A stretch of 64,000 bases of DNA, from positions 1-64,000 of the forward strand of contig CAILLX010000135.1 of the NCBI GenBank assembly GCA_903835185.1, written 5' to 3'. This document shows positions 38,365 through 50,394 of this stretch, piece by piece. The DNA is from an uncultured bacterium. Lineage in GTDB: Bacteria; Cyanobacteriota; Vampirovibrionia; Obscuribacterales; Obscuribacteraceae. Numbering within the stretch: the first letter of the stretch is position 1; each line of letters starts with the position of its first letter. The notes under the pieces are model-generated. The model saw only the letters and a program-made list of their open reading frames with translations. It did no database searches and was not told the origin of the DNA. A program made the position numbers and the translations under genes.

Positions 38365-39014
38365 GCTTTTTTAGCTGCGGCAGCAGCTCCAGGAGCAGCT
38401 TCAGCGGCAGCAACTCCAGGCACAGCTTCAGCGGCAGCAGCTCCTGCTGGCTGTTCTGATTCAGACACTGCTCTTGGTGTCGAGACACGTACAACAATCT
38501 CATCGCCTGGATTGAGGATCTCAACTCCCCCAGGTGTCTGCAGATCGGAGAAGTGAATCCCTTGATCCAGCTCAGTGATGGCTGTGAGGTCAACTTCAAG
38601 ATAGGTGGGGATGTCTTTAGGCAGACACTCAACTTCTACTGTCTGGTGGAATTCAACAAGCTGCCCGCCCAGTTTCATCGCTGGCGAGAGTCCGATAAAC
38701 TTAAGTGGTACTTCGACAGTAAGTTTGCGATCTGCCTGCACTTGGTAAAATTCAACATTAAGAATCTGGTTGCTTGTGGCGCGGCGTTGCACCTGGCGTA
38801 CCAGGGCGCTTGTCGATCCGGCTGCCTGCCCGTCGAGAGTGATGATCTGAGAGAAAGCTGCTGCAGGAAGCCTTGAGAATTCATGAGCGTTAATCTGCAC
38901 AGAGCGGGAATCGATGCCACGGCCATAAATGGTGGCAGGAATCTTACCTTCGCGTCTCAGCTGATTTGGTGTCTTGGCTTCGCGAACTTCGAGCTGTAAT
39001 TTGAACTTTTCCAT
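38361..39014 (-). CDS. rplY: 50S ribosomal protein L25 (general stress protein Ctc form)
   Basis: 217 residues. Binds 5S rRNA. The N-terminal L25 domain starts KLQLEVREAKTPNQLRREGK with IPATIYGRGIDSRSVQINAH; the TL5/Ctc C-terminal beta domain follows (VEVPLKFIGLSPAMKLGG, VECLPKDIPTYLEVDLTA). The last 40 residues are an Ala/Pro/Glu-rich tail made of repeated units (AAAAEAVPGVAAAEAAPGAA), encoded by tandem 24-base repeats. AAGGAG lies nine bases before the ATG. Confidence 0.95.
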   Translation of the reverse strand: MEKFKLQLEVREAKTPNQLRREGKIPATIYGRGIDSRSVQINAHEFSRLPAAAFSQIITLDGQAAGSTSALVRQVQRRATSNQILNVEFYQVQADRKLTVEVPLKFIGLSPAMKLGGQLVEFHQTVEVECLPKDIPTYLEVDLTAITELDQGIHFSDLQTPGGVEILNPGDEIVVRVSTPRAVSESEQPAGAAAAEAVPGVAAAEAAPGAAAAAKKA

Positions 39015-44041: not shown

Positions 44042-45304
44042 ATGAACAGCTCTGAAGGACCACCTCAATCTGCCTCAGTAAAATTCTCACCCATCCTCGC
44101 CTGGATAGCTGTTACCTGCCTGGTCGCAAACTCAATCCAGGTACTGTGTGATGGTGTTCGGGCACAGACGCTGCGGGCTGATGCAGCTGGTGTGGCCATT
44201 GTTGCGCTGGCTGTCGTAGCTGTCCTGCAGCTGTGGCAGAATTACAAAGCTTATTTCAGAATCTTGCCGGCAATGCGTTTTGCTGTTGTCATAATTGCTT
44301 TCCTGGCAACGTCCACAATTGCCGGGACTCTTATTTTGCAGACTGCCAATCAGGCTGTGTTTTTCTCGCGTTACAGTTTCCTGGCGCCTTTTATGACCTG
44401 GGCTCATCTGAATGACCTGTTTCACAGCGCCTGGTTCTACTGGCTCGAGACGCTCCTGGCAGCCGCATTAATTGCAGTGGTGGTACGCCGGCGCGGTTGG
44501 CGAGGGCGAGAGATAGGCTTTTTGTTCAGTCATGGTGGGATTGTACTCTTGCTGATAGCAGGAGCAATTGGGCAGCTGTTTGGTGGAGAAGGAATGCTTC
44601 ACCTGCAAGCAGGAGAATCTACTGGAAAGTATCTTGGCAGTGATGGACAGACTATGACTTTGCCGTTTCAATTAGTCCTTGACCGTTTTGCCATCGAGCG
44701 TCGCCCGCCGGATTTCCGTCTTTATGTAGTCGAGAAGGGTTCCGACAGCTATAAAGTGACAGCTGCCTTTAATCCTGCTAAACCAGGCCGGTACTCAGTG
44801 CCCGGGTACGGGCAGGTTGAGGTTGTCTCAACTCGTGTCTCTGTAGCAGATCCTGCTTCTGTAGAAGGATTGTTGAGTCGCAGTGCGCAGGCAGTAGCAC
44901 CGATTGTGCAGATTAAGCTTCACGATAATTCAGGTGGCTTTGAGGAGATTGCCTTGGGTGGTAGCGGCCAAAACATAGTGGCGCTAGGTAGTGAAACGCG
45001 CGAGTTGCGCCTGTCCAAGAAAGGAGATGATGTGTCCAACTTTGTCTCTACACTGGGCATCACAACTGCAGGCAGGCGAGTGGTGACAGCTAAAGTTTGT
45101 GTCAACCGTCCGCTCAGCTTTGGAGGTTACAAGTTCTACCAGGCCAGCTATGATCCGAAGAACCCGCGCTACAGCGGTATTCTTGTGGTGCGCAATCCTG
45201 CCTTGCCGTTGGTTTATATTGCTTTTGTGGCTATCCTTGTCGGTGTGATGCATATCCTCCTTGTGCGTCCGCGCCTTCTGCGGAGGCTGGAAGCTGCAGC
45301 ATGA
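44042..45304 (+). CDS. ccs1: Cytochrome c biogenesis protein Ccs1/ResB
   Basis: 420 residues. System II cytochrome c maturation: with CcsA it moves heme across the membrane and joins it to CxxCH motifs. Four hydrophobic helices (about 17-34, 48-70, 80-104, 150-170) precede a large periplasmic domain containing SVPGYGQVEVV and the ResB hallmark GGYKFYQASYDPKNPRYSGI, then a final helix. A GGAGGG lies 16 bases before the ATG, further than ideal. It overlaps ccsA by ATGA and begins the run of cytochrome genes. Confidence 0.88.
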   Translation: MNSSEGPPQSASVKFSPILAWIAVTCLVANSIQVLCDGVRAQTLRADAAGVAIVALAVVAVLQLWQNYKAYFRILPAMRFAVVIIAFLATSTIAGTLILQTANQAVFFSRYSFLAPFMTWAHLNDLFHSAWFYWLETLLAAALIAVVVRRRGWRGREIGFLFSHGGIVLLLIAGAIGQLFGGEGMLHLQAGESTGKYLGSDGQTMTLPFQLVLDRFAIERRPPDFRLYVVEKGSDSYKVTAAFNPAKPGRYSVPGYGQVEVVSTRVSVADPASVEGLLSRSAQAVAPIVQIKLHDNSGGFEEIALGGSGQNIVALGSETRELRLSKKGDDVSNFVSTLGITTAGRRVVTAKVCVNRPLSFGGYKFYQASYDPKNPRYSGILVVRNPALPLVYIAFVAILVGVMHILLVRPRLLRRLEAAA

Positions 45305-46404
45305 GTGAATGTGTTGTACTGTCGGTTTGCCTGCTTTGTTATCTGTTATCTGCTGTCAGCTATTCCTGGCTGTGGCGCAGGCAGCTCAGCAAGGTCAGGA
45401 ATTACACTCTTGTCTTTTTTGTTCTTGGCGCTCTTTTTGTAACAGGGGTAATAGCCGGCAGCTGGTGGAGCACAGGACGACCGCCGTTTAAGACGCTATA
45501 TGAGTCGCTTTTGCTTTTTGCCTGGTGTACTTCAGTTATCTATCTGGGTCTTGTCTGGGGGACAGGAGGCGTCTGTCAGGCAGTGCCTGGAGCAACGCCA
45601 TCTGGGCAGCTGGCCAATACTGTTAACTTGAATCGTAGGGGCGCGTCGGGACACGCCCGCTGGTTGCGGGCGGCTCTGCCCCTACAGCCCCTACAGCCCC
45701 TACAGCCGCCCGTGCAGCCGCCCGTGCAGCCGCCCCTACAACTATCCCAGAGGCTTAAGCTGACAATATTTGGAAAACCGGCTCGAAGCCTGAACTCTGG
45801 GGTTGTTTCTGTACGGGAGCCGCAACCAACTGGGTGTGGGATAGAACGTGCAGGTCCTATTCTTGGTGCCGGAGTATCAACTCTGCTGGCAGTGACCCTC
45901 GGGTATGCCATGACTCACCGCGATCTTGAGGCGGTGAGTCTGCCTCCGGCGTTGCAGAGCCCCTGGTTCGTACCGCATGTTCTCGTCTATTTTTTAGGAT
46001 ATGGAGCTTTGTTGGTGTCCGCTGTTGCTGCTGTCGCCTGCCTGGTGAAACCTTGTGGGGGGATTGGCGGTGGTGCGAACTGGCAAAGTAGAGCTGTCAG
46101 CTATGCCGGTTTGATGCACGGACTTATTGTTGCCGGCTACATCTTACTAACTGCTGGACTTATTCTTGGTGCTGTCTGGGCTAAAGATGCCTGGGGAAAT
46201 TATTGGGGTTGGGATCCTAAGGAGAATTGGGCTCTTATCTCGTGGCTGACATACACTCTTTATTTCCATCTGCGGCGGCTGTCTGGCTGGAATGAGAGGT
46301 CTTCAGCCTGGTGGGCTATTGGAGGCTTTGCTGTCATTATATTTACTTATCTTGGCATAAGCCTGCTGCCAACCGGCGATTCAAGCGTCCATACTTATCA
46401 GTAG
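45301..46404 (+). CDS. ccsA: Cytochrome c biogenesis protein CcsA, with an in-frame repeat insertion
   Basis: 367 residues. The heme-handling WWD motif is present as AKDAWGNYWGWDPKENWAL, with conserved periplasmic/membrane histidines, and the C-terminal helix ends in LPTGDSSVHTYQ. The N-terminal FKTLYESLLLFAW segment is also conserved. Between about residues 111 and 148, in the loop after the third helix, lies a Pro/Gln-rich insert (LQPLQPLQPPVQPPVQPPLQ) that comes from a repeated DNA element rather than from the protein family. The frame is kept through it, so the protein may still work. Together with Ccs1 it should serve the cytochromes encoded directly downstream. Confidence 0.9.
   Translation: MSECVVLSVCLLCYLLSAVSYSWLWRRQLSKVRNYTLVFFVLGALFVTGVIAGSWWSTGRPPFKTLYESLLLFAWCTSVIYLGLVWGTGGVCQAVPGATPSGQLANTVNLNRRGASGHARWLRAALPLQPLQPLQPPVQPPVQPPLQLSQRLKLTIFGKPARSLNSGVVSVREPQPTGCGIERAGPILGAGVSTLLAVTLGYAMTHRDLEAVSLPPALQSPWFVPHVLVYFLGYGALLVSAVAAVACLVKPCGGIGGGANWQSRAVSYAGLMHGLIVAGYILLTAGLILGAVWAKDAWGNYWGWDPKENWALISWLTYTLYFHLRRLSGWNERSSAWWAIGGFAVIIFTYLGISLLPTGDSSVHTYQ
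45635..45739. repeat. 105-base palindrome-ended repeat element inserted within ccsA
   Basis: The element begins GTAGGGGCG (45635-45643) and ends CGCCCCTAC (45731-45739), an exact inverted pair. Inside are GGGCGTGTCC-like and GCGGGCGGC arms and a mini-satellite of CCCCTACAG units (three copies near 45680-45704) and CCGCCCGTGCAG units (two to three copies). It keeps the ccsA frame open (35 codons). Similar GTAGGGGCG-type palindromes are known as dispersed extragenic repeats in several phyla; its presence inside a gene is unusual. Confidence 0.8.
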
Positions 46405-46659
46405 AACGCTTCCATCTGATAACCCAGGCTGGGCAACTGCTAGCTCGTAAATTTAGAGTTCACTCTTAGAGATTGGCTGCTCCAACTTTTCCTGGCAATG
46501 TTAGAGTGAACAGTCAGCATTTTGGCAGAGCAAGCCGCTTGTCTGGTTTTTTAACTTTTGCTAATATGCGGTAAAGGGTGCTGTCCATCGAACTGCAGTG
46601 GTCGGGGGTCCGTCTAGGCGATTTGCCAGATGCGTACTCCAGCAACAGAGGCGCGTCTC

Positions 46660-49600
46660 GTGAATAACCAGCGCACAACTATGACCTTAGCCACACTTCT
46701 TGTGGTTGCTGTCGTGGCAGCTCTGTCTGGTTGGGCGCACAGTCGCAGTCACGATTTTGCACGCAGCCGCTCTTTTGCTGTCTTTTGCAGTGATGTCTGT
46801 CCTATCCTTTCAGAGAACTGTTCGGCACGCGACGAAAAGGGCAACTTTGTCTGTCACGGTCGCCCAGCCGGCGCAAACGGTCAGGATGATGTTACCAGTC
46901 CGGCAGCTAAACTGCCTCATGTGGTGCCAGCTACAGCTTCTTCATGCGACCTGTGCCATGCTAAAAAAGGACAGATGCGCTTTACTTTTGCTGTCTCACC
47001 AGCAGGGAGGATTGAGACAGATCGTCAGCGTCTTCTGGCATACGAACAGGTGAAGGCTGTTTCTGCCAAGGTTCTCCGCATGCCGCTAGGAGCTCAAGCT
47101 GGAGGCTTTGGTCTTTTCCATCCTGGTGGAGAGGTTTGTGAGACCAGTTCAGATCCGGACTTTCAAAAGTTGGCTCGCTGGGTCTCTCTGGAACGTGCCG
47201 AGTCACGCGGACGGCAGGCGCCGCCTGGAGTGGCAGAGAGCTTTTTCCGGGATCATGTGCTGCCTGTTCTGGCACGAAGAACCTGCCTGGCGCCTTCCTG
47301 CCACACTTTCAACCACTCAAGTTTTGTTCCTGATCCTGGCACTCCAGGAGAGGACCTGACTTTGCCTATCTCTGAGCGTTTTTCTGCTGAGCAGGTAACT
47401 TATAACCGTAATGCAGCTAAAGGGCTTATTCAATCGCTGGTTTATTTAACTGGAGATGTCGAACAGAGCAGGTTCCTCAAAAAGATAATACCGATTGAAA
47501 GTGGGGGAGTGCTGCACAGAGGGGGCAATGATCAGTTTATTCAAGGCAAATCGGATCCTGACTATAAGATGATAAAGAGATGGCTGCAGCTGGAGCGGGC
47601 TGAAGCAGCCGGTAAGCTGCGCTCAGGTGGCAAACCGGTTATGCCAGCGTTGCTCGGGCAGGTGCGTGGCGTGGTCTTTGTCAGGACAAGAGCGGACAAC
47701 TACCGCCGTTATCTTGATGTCGGCAAGTATCTTCCTGGAGGCGATCTTTACCTTCTTAAGCTAAAGAAGGGAGAGACTCTCAGCACCGCTGGCGGTGTGC
47801 CTCTGAACCTTACTGCACGCTTCCATGCGGGCTCTGCCGCAGATATACGCAAACCGGTTGTCCGTTACGACGGCAAAGCAATCCTGTTTGCCATGCGTGC
47901 CGGCGTTGCCGATAATTTGAATATATATGAGATTAAGCTCGATGATAATCTCAATTATGTCGAAGGTAGCTTCAGGCGGTTGACATACGGTCCCCGGACG
48001 GTCAACGGCATTCCAGTCAACTTTACTGATCCTGTTTATGTGCCTGATCCCACTGATGAAAATGCTGGTGAAGGCGGTTATAACCTGGATCGTGTTGATG
48101 TTGTTTTTACTTCCAATCTGGCAGGACAGGTTATTCAGAGTACTGAACGCGGGATTATCGGTGAGGCTGATGGTGGTGACCTGAGGACAATTCTTGACCG
48201 GGACAGGCAGGAGCCTGATCACAGCTTTGTCGGCCGGCGCATTTATGTTGTTGATGGAACTAACAAAGGCGCTTGGCGTACGGTCACTTCTTTTGAGAAC
48301 CGGCTGGCAACTCCCAGACAGCAAACAGTCATCGCTGTTGATCGTCCGTTTGCCAAGCCGGTCGATCAGTCAACCGTATATGTAATTGAGCAAGCTTCTA
48401 GCGAGCAACCTGGTTTTCTGCCCAGCTACTCGGTCTATGGTATGAAGTATGCTTGTGCCGGGCAGGAGCGGGATATCTACAAGAGCACACTTACACGCAT
48501 TACATGGAACTTGGGGCAGGACATGGATTTAAGTGTAAGAACGACAGGGGAGGTCTTTTACGGATCGCAAAGAGCAGCTGTGGACAGGTTTAATCGTCCT
48601 GTCTTTCATATGACCAGCTGCCGGCGCCATCTGGACTCCCGCTTTAGCTTCCCTACACATCATGGCAATCGTTCTCACGTCCCTATCTATGCTGCTAATT
48701 ATGAGCTGCCCTCCGGTATCGATATCCATGTGGGCATGGATGCCGACAATCTGTGGCAGGCAGGTAATTTAATCGTCAGTGATCATCAATTTGGACCTGA
48801 TCTGGAGGCTAAGAATCCTAATCTTTTCAGCTGGGGCGTTTTTGATGAGAAAGGGGTGCCTGTGACTACTGGACAGGATATATCTAACACGCGCTTCAAG
48901 TATGAGCATATGCAGCCTTCACACCCGCGCTTTGTGTTTAAGACTATTCCACTTTATCCGACAGTTGGCGCTCATGCTGTCAGTTATACAGGTGTGTCGC
49001 CAGGCGGTGCTTTCCGTGATCCGACACCTTTGCCTGATGGCAGCTTGCTTGTCTCTTACTCTCGCTCTCCCATTAACAATTTTGATCCAAAGGCTAATCC
49101 CCATTTTGATCTTTATGTTCTGTCCGGGGCGCCTGCGCTGCAGCCCGCAGGCGGTAAAGGTGTGCCACAGGTGAGCCTTACGCCTGTGACTGCAGCTAAT
49201 AAGAAAGGAAGCAGTGAGGTTGAGGCGGCGGCAATCTTCGTGCGCATTAAGCCGAAAATAAATGCCGGCAAACGTCCTCGCAACGAACATACAATTCGTT
49301 ATCCGGGCGATTCGCCTGATACCAGACCAGCTACTTACCTGGAGAAGAACTATCCATTGATTGACGCCATCATGCGCGATCCATCACCGTCAGGCAAACG
49401 AGTTGCCTATGCTCGTGATCCTGTGACAGGAGTGCGACTTGATCCTTCTGAGCGGATCTACGCAGTGCGCTTTGTGGAGGCACTGCCTATGACACCAGCA
49501 CTGGCAGCAGCTGTTGATGTCAAACAGATTAGCAATCACGACCCGCAAAGTACTCTGGTGACAAACGGCATCTCGCCAGCAAAACGAGTGGTGGCAGAGG

Positions 49601-50394
49601 TGCCGCTGGAGAAGGATGGCTCGGTGTTCTGCCAGATCCCTTCTCGCACGCCGATGATTATCCAGAGTGTCAATGCTGACGGCATGGCTATGCGCCAGGA
49701 GGCACGTTACTACTTCTTTGCTCCCGGTGAGCCTTATGGTATATCGCCTTCGGCAAGTGAAACTTTCCGAACGTGTGGTGCCTGTATGGGCTCTATCACA
49801 GGACATCCTCAAGATCTCTTCGGTCCGATCCTGCCGTTTTCCGGCTCAGGCGGTATTGAGGCTGTAGCCCGCGCTGGCGGCAACCCGCCTGCTTACGGCT
49901 TGAAAGCGGAGGAGCGTGTCTCTGTAGACTTTGTCAGGGATATTCAACCGTTATTGGACAGGCATTGTGTCAGCTGCCACAGCGGTAACAGTCCTGCTGC
50001 AAGTCTCAATTTGAGCGGTGAAAAAACTCGTTATTACTCTTGTGCATATGAGAGCCTCATGAAACTTGAAGATCCGGCAAGCTCCTGGTGGGGGCATAAG
50101 AAATATGTGGATGAACGGGAGGCTCTGGCTATCAAAAGTTATCTCATTGCCAAGGTCTATGGACGGCAGTTGAAAGCTGATAAACAGCTGACCGGAGATC
50201 GACCTCATCCCAGTGCGGAGCTTTTTGCTGCCTCTGGGAAGCAACCTGCTCCGCTCACCGATCAAGAGCGTCATCTGTTAGCTTTGTGGATTGATCTTGG
50301 TGCTGCTTTCCGGTCAGCACCGCAGGCAGCACCACCGTTTGTGAAGCCAACTGTGGTGGCTAATTCAGATAAGGTCAGAGGTGCAACAAGATGA
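46660..50394 (+). CDS. Hydrazine-synthase-alpha-like multidomain c-type cytochrome
   Basis: 1244 residues from a GTG at 46660 with GAGG upstream (an ATG at 46630 is also in frame). A signal-anchor helix (about 9-27) is followed by an N-terminal heme region with CDLCH (C96-H100) and, further on, a C-x4-CH motif CLAPSCH (209-215). The middle (about 330-780) is a beta-propeller resembling the HZS-alpha middle domain: IRKPVVRYDGKAILFAMRAG, NIYEIKLDDN, RRLTYGP, DPVYVPDP and VVFTSNLAG. The typical closing part follows (VAEVPLEKDGSVFCQIPSRT, YYFFAPGEPYG), but the heme motif normally found there reads CGACM (C1039, C1042, M1043). A last domain has DIQPLLDRHCVSCHSGN (C1103-H1107). It probably acts outside the cytoplasm. 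The HZS relation is by pattern; activity is unknown. Confidence 0.72.
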   Translation: MNNQRTTMTLATLLVVAVVAALSGWAHSRSHDFARSRSFAVFCSDVCPILSENCSARDEKGNFVCHGRPAGANGQDDVTSPAAKLPHVVPATASSCDLCHAKKGQMRFTFAVSPAGRIETDRQRLLAYEQVKAVSAKVLRMPLGAQAGGFGLFHPGGEVCETSSDPDFQKLARWVSLERAESRGRQAPPGVAESFFRDHVLPVLARRTCLAPSCHTFNHSSFVPDPGTPGEDLTLPISERFSAEQVTYNRNAAKGLIQSLVYLTGDVEQSRFLKKIIPIESGGVLHRGGNDQFIQGKSDPDYKMIKRWLQLERAEAAGKLRSGGKPVMPALLGQVRGVVFVRTRADNYRRYLDVGKYLPGGDLYLLKLKKGETLSTAGGVPLNLTARFHAGSAADIRKPVVRYDGKAILFAMRAGVADNLNIYEIKLDDNLNYVEGSFRRLTYGPRTVNGIPVNFTDPVYVPDPTDENAGEGGYNLDRVDVVFTSNLAGQVIQSTERGIIGEADGGDLRTILDRDRQEPDHSFVGRRIYVVDGTNKGAWRTVTSFENRLATPRQQTVIAVDRPFAKPVDQSTVYVIEQASSEQPGFLPSYSVYGMKYACAGQERDIYKSTLTRITWNLGQDMDLSVRTTGEVFYGSQRAAVDRFNRPVFHMTSCRRHLDSRFSFPTHHGNRSHVPIYAANYELPSGIDIHVGMDADNLWQAGNLIVSDHQFGPDLEAKNPNLFSWGVFDEKGVPVTTGQDISNTRFKYEHMQPSHPRFVFKTIPLYPTVGAHAVSYTGVSPGGAFRDPTPLPDGSLLVSYSRSPINNFDPKANPHFDLYVLSGAPALQPAGGKGVPQVSLTPVTAANKKGSSEVEAAAIFVRIKPKINAGKRPRNEHTIRYPGDSPDTRPATYLEKNYPLIDAIMRDPSPSGKRVAYARDPVTGVRLDPSERIYAVRFVEALPMTPALAAAVDVKQISNHDPQSTLVTNGISPAKRVVAEVPLEKDGSVFCQIPSRTPMIIQSVNADGMAMRQEARYYFFAPGEPYGISPSASETFRTCGACMGSITGHPQDLFGPILPFSGSGGIEAVARAGGNPPAYGLKAEERVSVDFVRDIQPLLDRHCVSCHSGNSPAASLNLSGEKTRYYSCAYESLMKLEDPASSWWGHKKYVDEREALAIKSYLIAKVYGRQLKADKQLTGDRPHPSAELFAASGKQPAPLTDQERHLLALWIDLGAAFRSAPQAAPPFVKPTVVANSDKVRGATR

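Follow-up and report, generated by a model that had tools for sequence, protein, structure and literature searches.

The 157-bp insert within ccsA, on the 64,000-nucleotide stretch of DNA analysed here (the window), is most probably a MITE-like selfish element containing a REP core, which inserted into the gene and is tolerated there as a translated, disordered loop. We propose that the insertions would be the work of a DDE-type transposase supplied in trans and acting at the outer ends, and that a RAYT may have spread or seeded the inner palindromes. An insertion that kept the frame would then be translated, through the open phase of the consensus, as a polar linker rich in Pro, Gln, Arg and Ala. 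In ccsA the insert falls between two transmembrane helices, in what is predicted to be a disordered loop, and it presumably survived selection because this site leaves the CcsA fold and its conserved motifs unharmed. Other than being tolerated, the element most likely does nothing for CcsA.

Host gene and architecture of the insert

The host is a ccsA/ccsB-type cytochrome c assembly gene on the plus strand (45301-46404), a 367-aa ORF; its start and the stop of a ResB-like gene (44042-45304) overlap. Its translation matches the profile PF01578 (Cytochrom_C_asm; E 3.6e-38) and scores 166.3 bits against TIGR03144 (CcsB), which is under that model's cut-off of 187.6. The ORF is uninterrupted across the insert, and in an alignment with 14 homologs the protein keeps both its WGNYWGWD stretch and the conserved histidines; for this reason the gene looks functional, as predicted from its sequence. 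A pseudogene is rejected on the strength of the intact ORF and motifs, and an intein is judged unlikely from the size of the insert (~53 aa).

A first-pass annotation of the window had described a palindrome-ended repeat at 45635-45739, inserted in frame in ccsA and enclosing GC arms and a small satellite. The exact 9-nt inverted ends (GTAGGGGCG at 45635-45643 and CGCCCCTAC at 45731-45739), the internal GC arms of 8-9 nt, the satellite and the reading frame were all borne out. These limits (105 bp) are nevertheless too narrow, since outer arms extend the element to 45615-45771 on the plus strand, and it contributes ~53 residues to CcsA (aa 105-157) where ~35 had been proposed. The whole composite is matched at 76 bits, over the full length 1-113, by R1, a covariance model built from nine copies, among them the ccsA copy with part of its satellite left out; this is the only R1 place in the window.

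The element begins with a left outer inverted end (CAATACTGTTAACTTGAATC, 45615-45634), which aligns with other copies. The first REP follows (45635-45658, plus strand), a GTAG head and a hairpin, GGGCGCGT-CGGG-ACACGCCC, that is common to many copies and is predicted to fold at -11.2 kcal/mol (45635-45660). A second, facing REP lies on the minus strand (45667-45685, its GTAG head at 45685) and is degenerate here. An in-frame satellite occupies 45678-45735 of the plus strand and consists of a 9-nt unit, GCCCCTACA, repeated 3.3 times (45678-45707), then a 12-nt unit, CAGCCGCCCGTG, repeated 2.8 times (45703-45735). The plus-strand right outer inverted end (AACTATCCCAGAGGCTTAAGCTGACAATATTT, 45740-45771), aligned with other copies and by R1, completes the unit. 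All five occurrences of GTAGGGGC in the window are at the ccsA insert, against an expectation of 1.01, and none of 100 shuffles reached five.

Copies in the genome and their mobility

Searching the genome with the insert by BLAST returned 52 matches, itself included. R1 gave 137 hits at E<=1, and by-hand removal of hits above 0.01 and of opposite-strand duplicates left 91; merging those that lie within 150 bp of one another gives 81 places. Most of these places are outside long ORFs (16 of the 81 have a hit in one). The view of the insert as a dispersed palindromic repeat is thus upheld. Many oriented copies carry a GTAG palindrome pair, with CAATACCGTnnAnTTAAG to the left and its inverted counterpart to the right, and the outer inverted ends, CAATACCG and CGGTATTG, are ~17-20 bp long; the satellites vary from copy to copy. 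The outer-end pattern was found at 44 sites versus 2 for the reversed control, and GTAGGGGCG at 123 sites versus 25 for its reversed form. The family combines traits of GTAG REPs and BIMEs (a GTAG head then a short palindrome, facing pairs, high copy number) with those of MITEs (short length, terminal inverted repeats, no transposase gene of its own).

Some copies are parts of larger arrangements. At C67:54342-54508 (L022) and C139:1378-1532 (L026), the copy forms the inside of a bigger composite that has a second pair of outer ends and an additional palindrome module; ORFs on C139 and C165 also carry this composite in frame. At C233:1549-1751 (L164), two near-identical copies are in tandem, with AGAAACGATGCC at the junctions.

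Short flanking duplications are the footprint of DDE-type transposases. In the 19 copies whose ends could be placed, left and right flanks have a mean best 9-mer match of 7.26, compared to 4.80 for permuted flanks (0 of 2000 permutations). Removing the tandem pair and the coding copies leaves 13 non-coding copies, for which the values are 7.62 and 5.18 (0 of 5000). These 13, with both ends visible, have target-site duplications of 9-10 bp, such as TGGCTAGCC/TGGCTAGCC (C147) and AGCCTAAGTC/AGCCTAAGCC (C13). Of the four coding copies in the set of 19, which score 4, 5, 5 and 7, three lack a visible duplication, the ccsA copy (best 9-mer match 5/9) being one of them. With its degenerate second palindrome and expanded satellite as well, the ccsA copy gives no support to the suggestion that the insertion is recent. 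Among six PF01609 transposase matches in the genome, whose assembly is 85% complete, none carries the element's ends; these ends may resemble those of IS4.

The single RAYT gene found in the genome (C105; L031:243-803, minus strand) scores 79.7 bits against NF047646, where the cut-off is 80, or 80.1 when joined, and carries an NHLHAI motif. On either side of it stand inverted copies of a single palindrome of the element, the second one. On the same contig (L031 1-2087), a minisatellite of GTAGCGGCGGCTACC-like units adjoins the RAYT gene and seemingly grew out of the REP stem. Because the RAYT gene is flanked by the element's palindrome, and duplications are found at the ends, the core looks to be of the GTAG REP/RAYT kind and the ends look MITE-like.

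Could a RAYT alone account for the insert? In such a scenario, ccsA would have received a pure REP/BIME insertion, the outer ends would be one more piece of a mosaic, and ccsA would never have been the target of a DDE transposase. The RAYT gene with its flanking palindromes, the absence of a visible duplication at ccsA, and the satellites and mosaics, which are typical of BIMEs, all agree with this. However, the outer inverted ends are common to the copies, lie at their edges and are accompanied by duplications in the 13 non-coding copies, and a 49-bp copy (C124:12440-12488) has the outer ends but is missing the REP core. We consider insertion by RAYT alone unlikely, and favor a MITE-like element, with a REP core, that would be mobilized through its outer ends.

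In-frame copies in CcsA and other proteins

Counting as coding only those hits that have 50 aa or more of open frame to either side, and 200 aa or more in total, 18 of the 91 hits are in frame in 15 long ORFs, ccsA included; a 213-aa ORF on C218 fell outside this rule and was left out of the count. The hosts include ComEC (two copies), a TIGR03960 radical SAM protein, CbiX-CbiC, CbiG, TPR and TPR-CHAT proteins, and several membrane glycosyltransferase-like proteins. With the element in frame in 14 ORFs besides ccsA, both descriptions offered at first pass, a tolerated insertion and a protein-coding repeat, fit the data. The core is read in one codon phase in all 18 coding hits, in both orientations, typically as NLxRRGASRRARWAALEPPLQLSQxLKLT or NTVNLxxxDDxRGGSRAAQRARPDAPLH. 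The phase relative to the hit start is identical in 17 of them, and the other (C233:32423) is a shifted hit start with the core peptide unchanged. In the consensus, assembled by eye, each strand has a single phase that is open throughout, and it is the same phase on both. To some extent this is forced: in intact copies, stops in the outer arms close the remaining phases. At least one of the six frames is open throughout in 62 of the 73 non-coding hits. Shuffled elements preserve the long ORF in 1262 of 3600 trials; an open frame is therefore weak evidence by itself, and it is the comparisons with homologs that carry the argument.

The radical SAM protein has ~45 extra residues relative to 10 homologs. 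Within the glycosyltransferase-like pair on C233 and C171 (1527-4046), one protein carries its element where the other has an alignment gap, the two being strongly diverged (31% identity). The element in the CbiX-CbiC fusion (L161; C139:19519-21183) lies in the linker between the two domains, at the position of a conserved NCSLCKYRV segment that is present in 8 homologs and lost here; a clean insertion is ruled out, and the alignment points to a replacement, or an insertion plus a deletion. In a CbiG-like protein (C139:23887-24939) and the TPR protein on C228, the element is upstream of all recognised domains and is possibly untranslated, because a downstream start codon could skip it.

The one phase shared by both strands, the ccsA satellite units that are multiples of 3, and a peptide that would make a soluble, disordered linker raise the further possibility, which we hold only tentatively, that the element evolved to be translatable. 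If so, it could have spread through coding as well as intergenic DNA, and would be a source of loops and linkers for CcsA, ComEC, the TIGR03960 radical SAM protein and CbiX-CbiC.

A role at the level of RNA would require hairpins that, between the two parts of ccsA, adjust translation or the decay of the mRNA, with the peptide incidental. The hairpins predicted for 45635-45690 are strong (-35.2 kcal/mol), and REPs have been treated as RNA-level elements (PMC3733652). Yet the repeat is inside an ORF, where ribosomes would unfold such hairpins, and the element resides in many unrelated genes and on either strand, making this role quite improbable.

The loop between helices 66-89 and 181-205 is 98 aa in CcsA and 0-17 aa (median 9) in 43 homologs, these being the members of a set of 55 with ORFs of 200-420 aa; the value of 0 comes from a 226-aa open frame (L064), probably that of an incomplete gene. 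None of the 43 has a long loop at this position, in keeping with an insertion; of the two findings that the first-pass annotation named as refuting it, conservation of the insert in distant relatives and a lack of copies elsewhere, neither was made. An AlphaFold model (15-sequence alignment, mean pLDDT 75.1) predicts both helices well and gives residues 91-180 a block mean pLDDT of 40-50. The loop is therefore predicted to be disordered, and its location between two helices agrees with the first-pass annotation. No membrane segment was detected by hydropathy within the insert. Approximately 45 of the extra loop residues are outside the element, and their DNA matched no repeat among the stretches fetched from the same genome. 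No close ccsA ortholog without the insert was found, the best homologs being 36-45% identical over the C-terminal part. That the loop would be long without the element, and that the comparison includes no close ortholog, could be taken to indicate that this CcsA lineage has a Pro-rich loop or small domain of its own whose likeness to a repeat is superficial, but the presence of the same DNA at 81 places, mostly outside long ORFs, contradicts this reading and leaves it with next to no probability.

Relation to known elements and distribution

Rickettsia is the best-known source of palindromic elements that code for protein. The family described here, with MITE-like ends and a REP core, occupies 15 ORFs in frame in a genome of 4.35 Mb, and so bears on whether such elements are a quirk of reduced intracellular genomes. 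It also joins, in one element, the REP/RAYT, MITE and Rickettsia palindromic element literatures. Both REPs inside ORFs and Rickettsia palindromic elements are documented (PMC3733652, PMC10969869). The latter are ~150-bp palindromic sequences, in frame in unrelated genes and encoding a conserved peptide (reviewed in PMC10969869). Our element, too, resides in the reading frames of unrelated genes and encodes one conserved peptide there, and by this analogy of behavior it may work in the same way; it differs from them (PMC10969869) in its lineage, its GTAG-REP core, the RAYT gene in the genome, and the target-site duplications at non-coding copies.

The closest described architecture, judged from its published description, is that of QMITE2 of Coxiella burnetii, which is 150-190 bp long, with terminal inverted repeats and 7-11 nt direct repeats, and encloses a GTAG REP (PMC5896051). 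Its shorter versions are bare REPs, and it is found mainly in 3' untranslated and intergenic regions, with two in-frame cases in hypothetical proteins, whereas 18 of our 91 hits are in frame in long ORFs, with conserved enzymes among the hosts (PMC5896051). Units of GTAG REPs and RAYT have a GTAG head, facing dimers and a RAYT gene between inverted REPs, and intragenic GTAG REPs encode 20-30 aa in frame, or 43-82 aa for clusters in two species (PMC3733652, PMC2817692). The GTAG head, facing pair, REP-flanked RAYT and in-frame copies are shared with our element, in which, unlike in those, MITE-like ends with duplications enclose the REP pair and the whole unit is found in ORFs (PMC3733652, PMC2817692). 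A literature search did not find this element described, which is not proof of absence, nor the combination of MITE ends, a REP core, frequent in-frame residence and one phase on both strands; the element looks new.

The element is nearly restricted to one lineage. Among 60 genomes (its own and 59 relatives), R1 matched its own genome and, at 40 bits, one place in one genome of the same family, and among 292 genomes of the phylum it matched its own and none of the 291 others; both searches used stricter filters, by which weak matches are lost. Neither the exact 24-nt REP in viral contigs nor a 102-nt copy in plasmids was found. RAYT-like genes are more widespread than the element, occurring in 17 of the 60 genomes, its own included. 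Since the element is nearly absent from the relatives searched, its insertions are datable and their effects on proteins can be tested against uninserted homologs.

Two further observations concern the window. Directly downstream of ccsA, at 46630-50394, is a gene for a 1254-aa protein that matches PF18582 (hydrazine synthase alpha middle domain; E 2.4e-09), contains CxxCH haem motifs in its translation and may be a client of the ResB/CcsA pair. At 38377-38444 there is a tandem repeat with a 27-bp unit, present in 2.5 copies that match at 90%.
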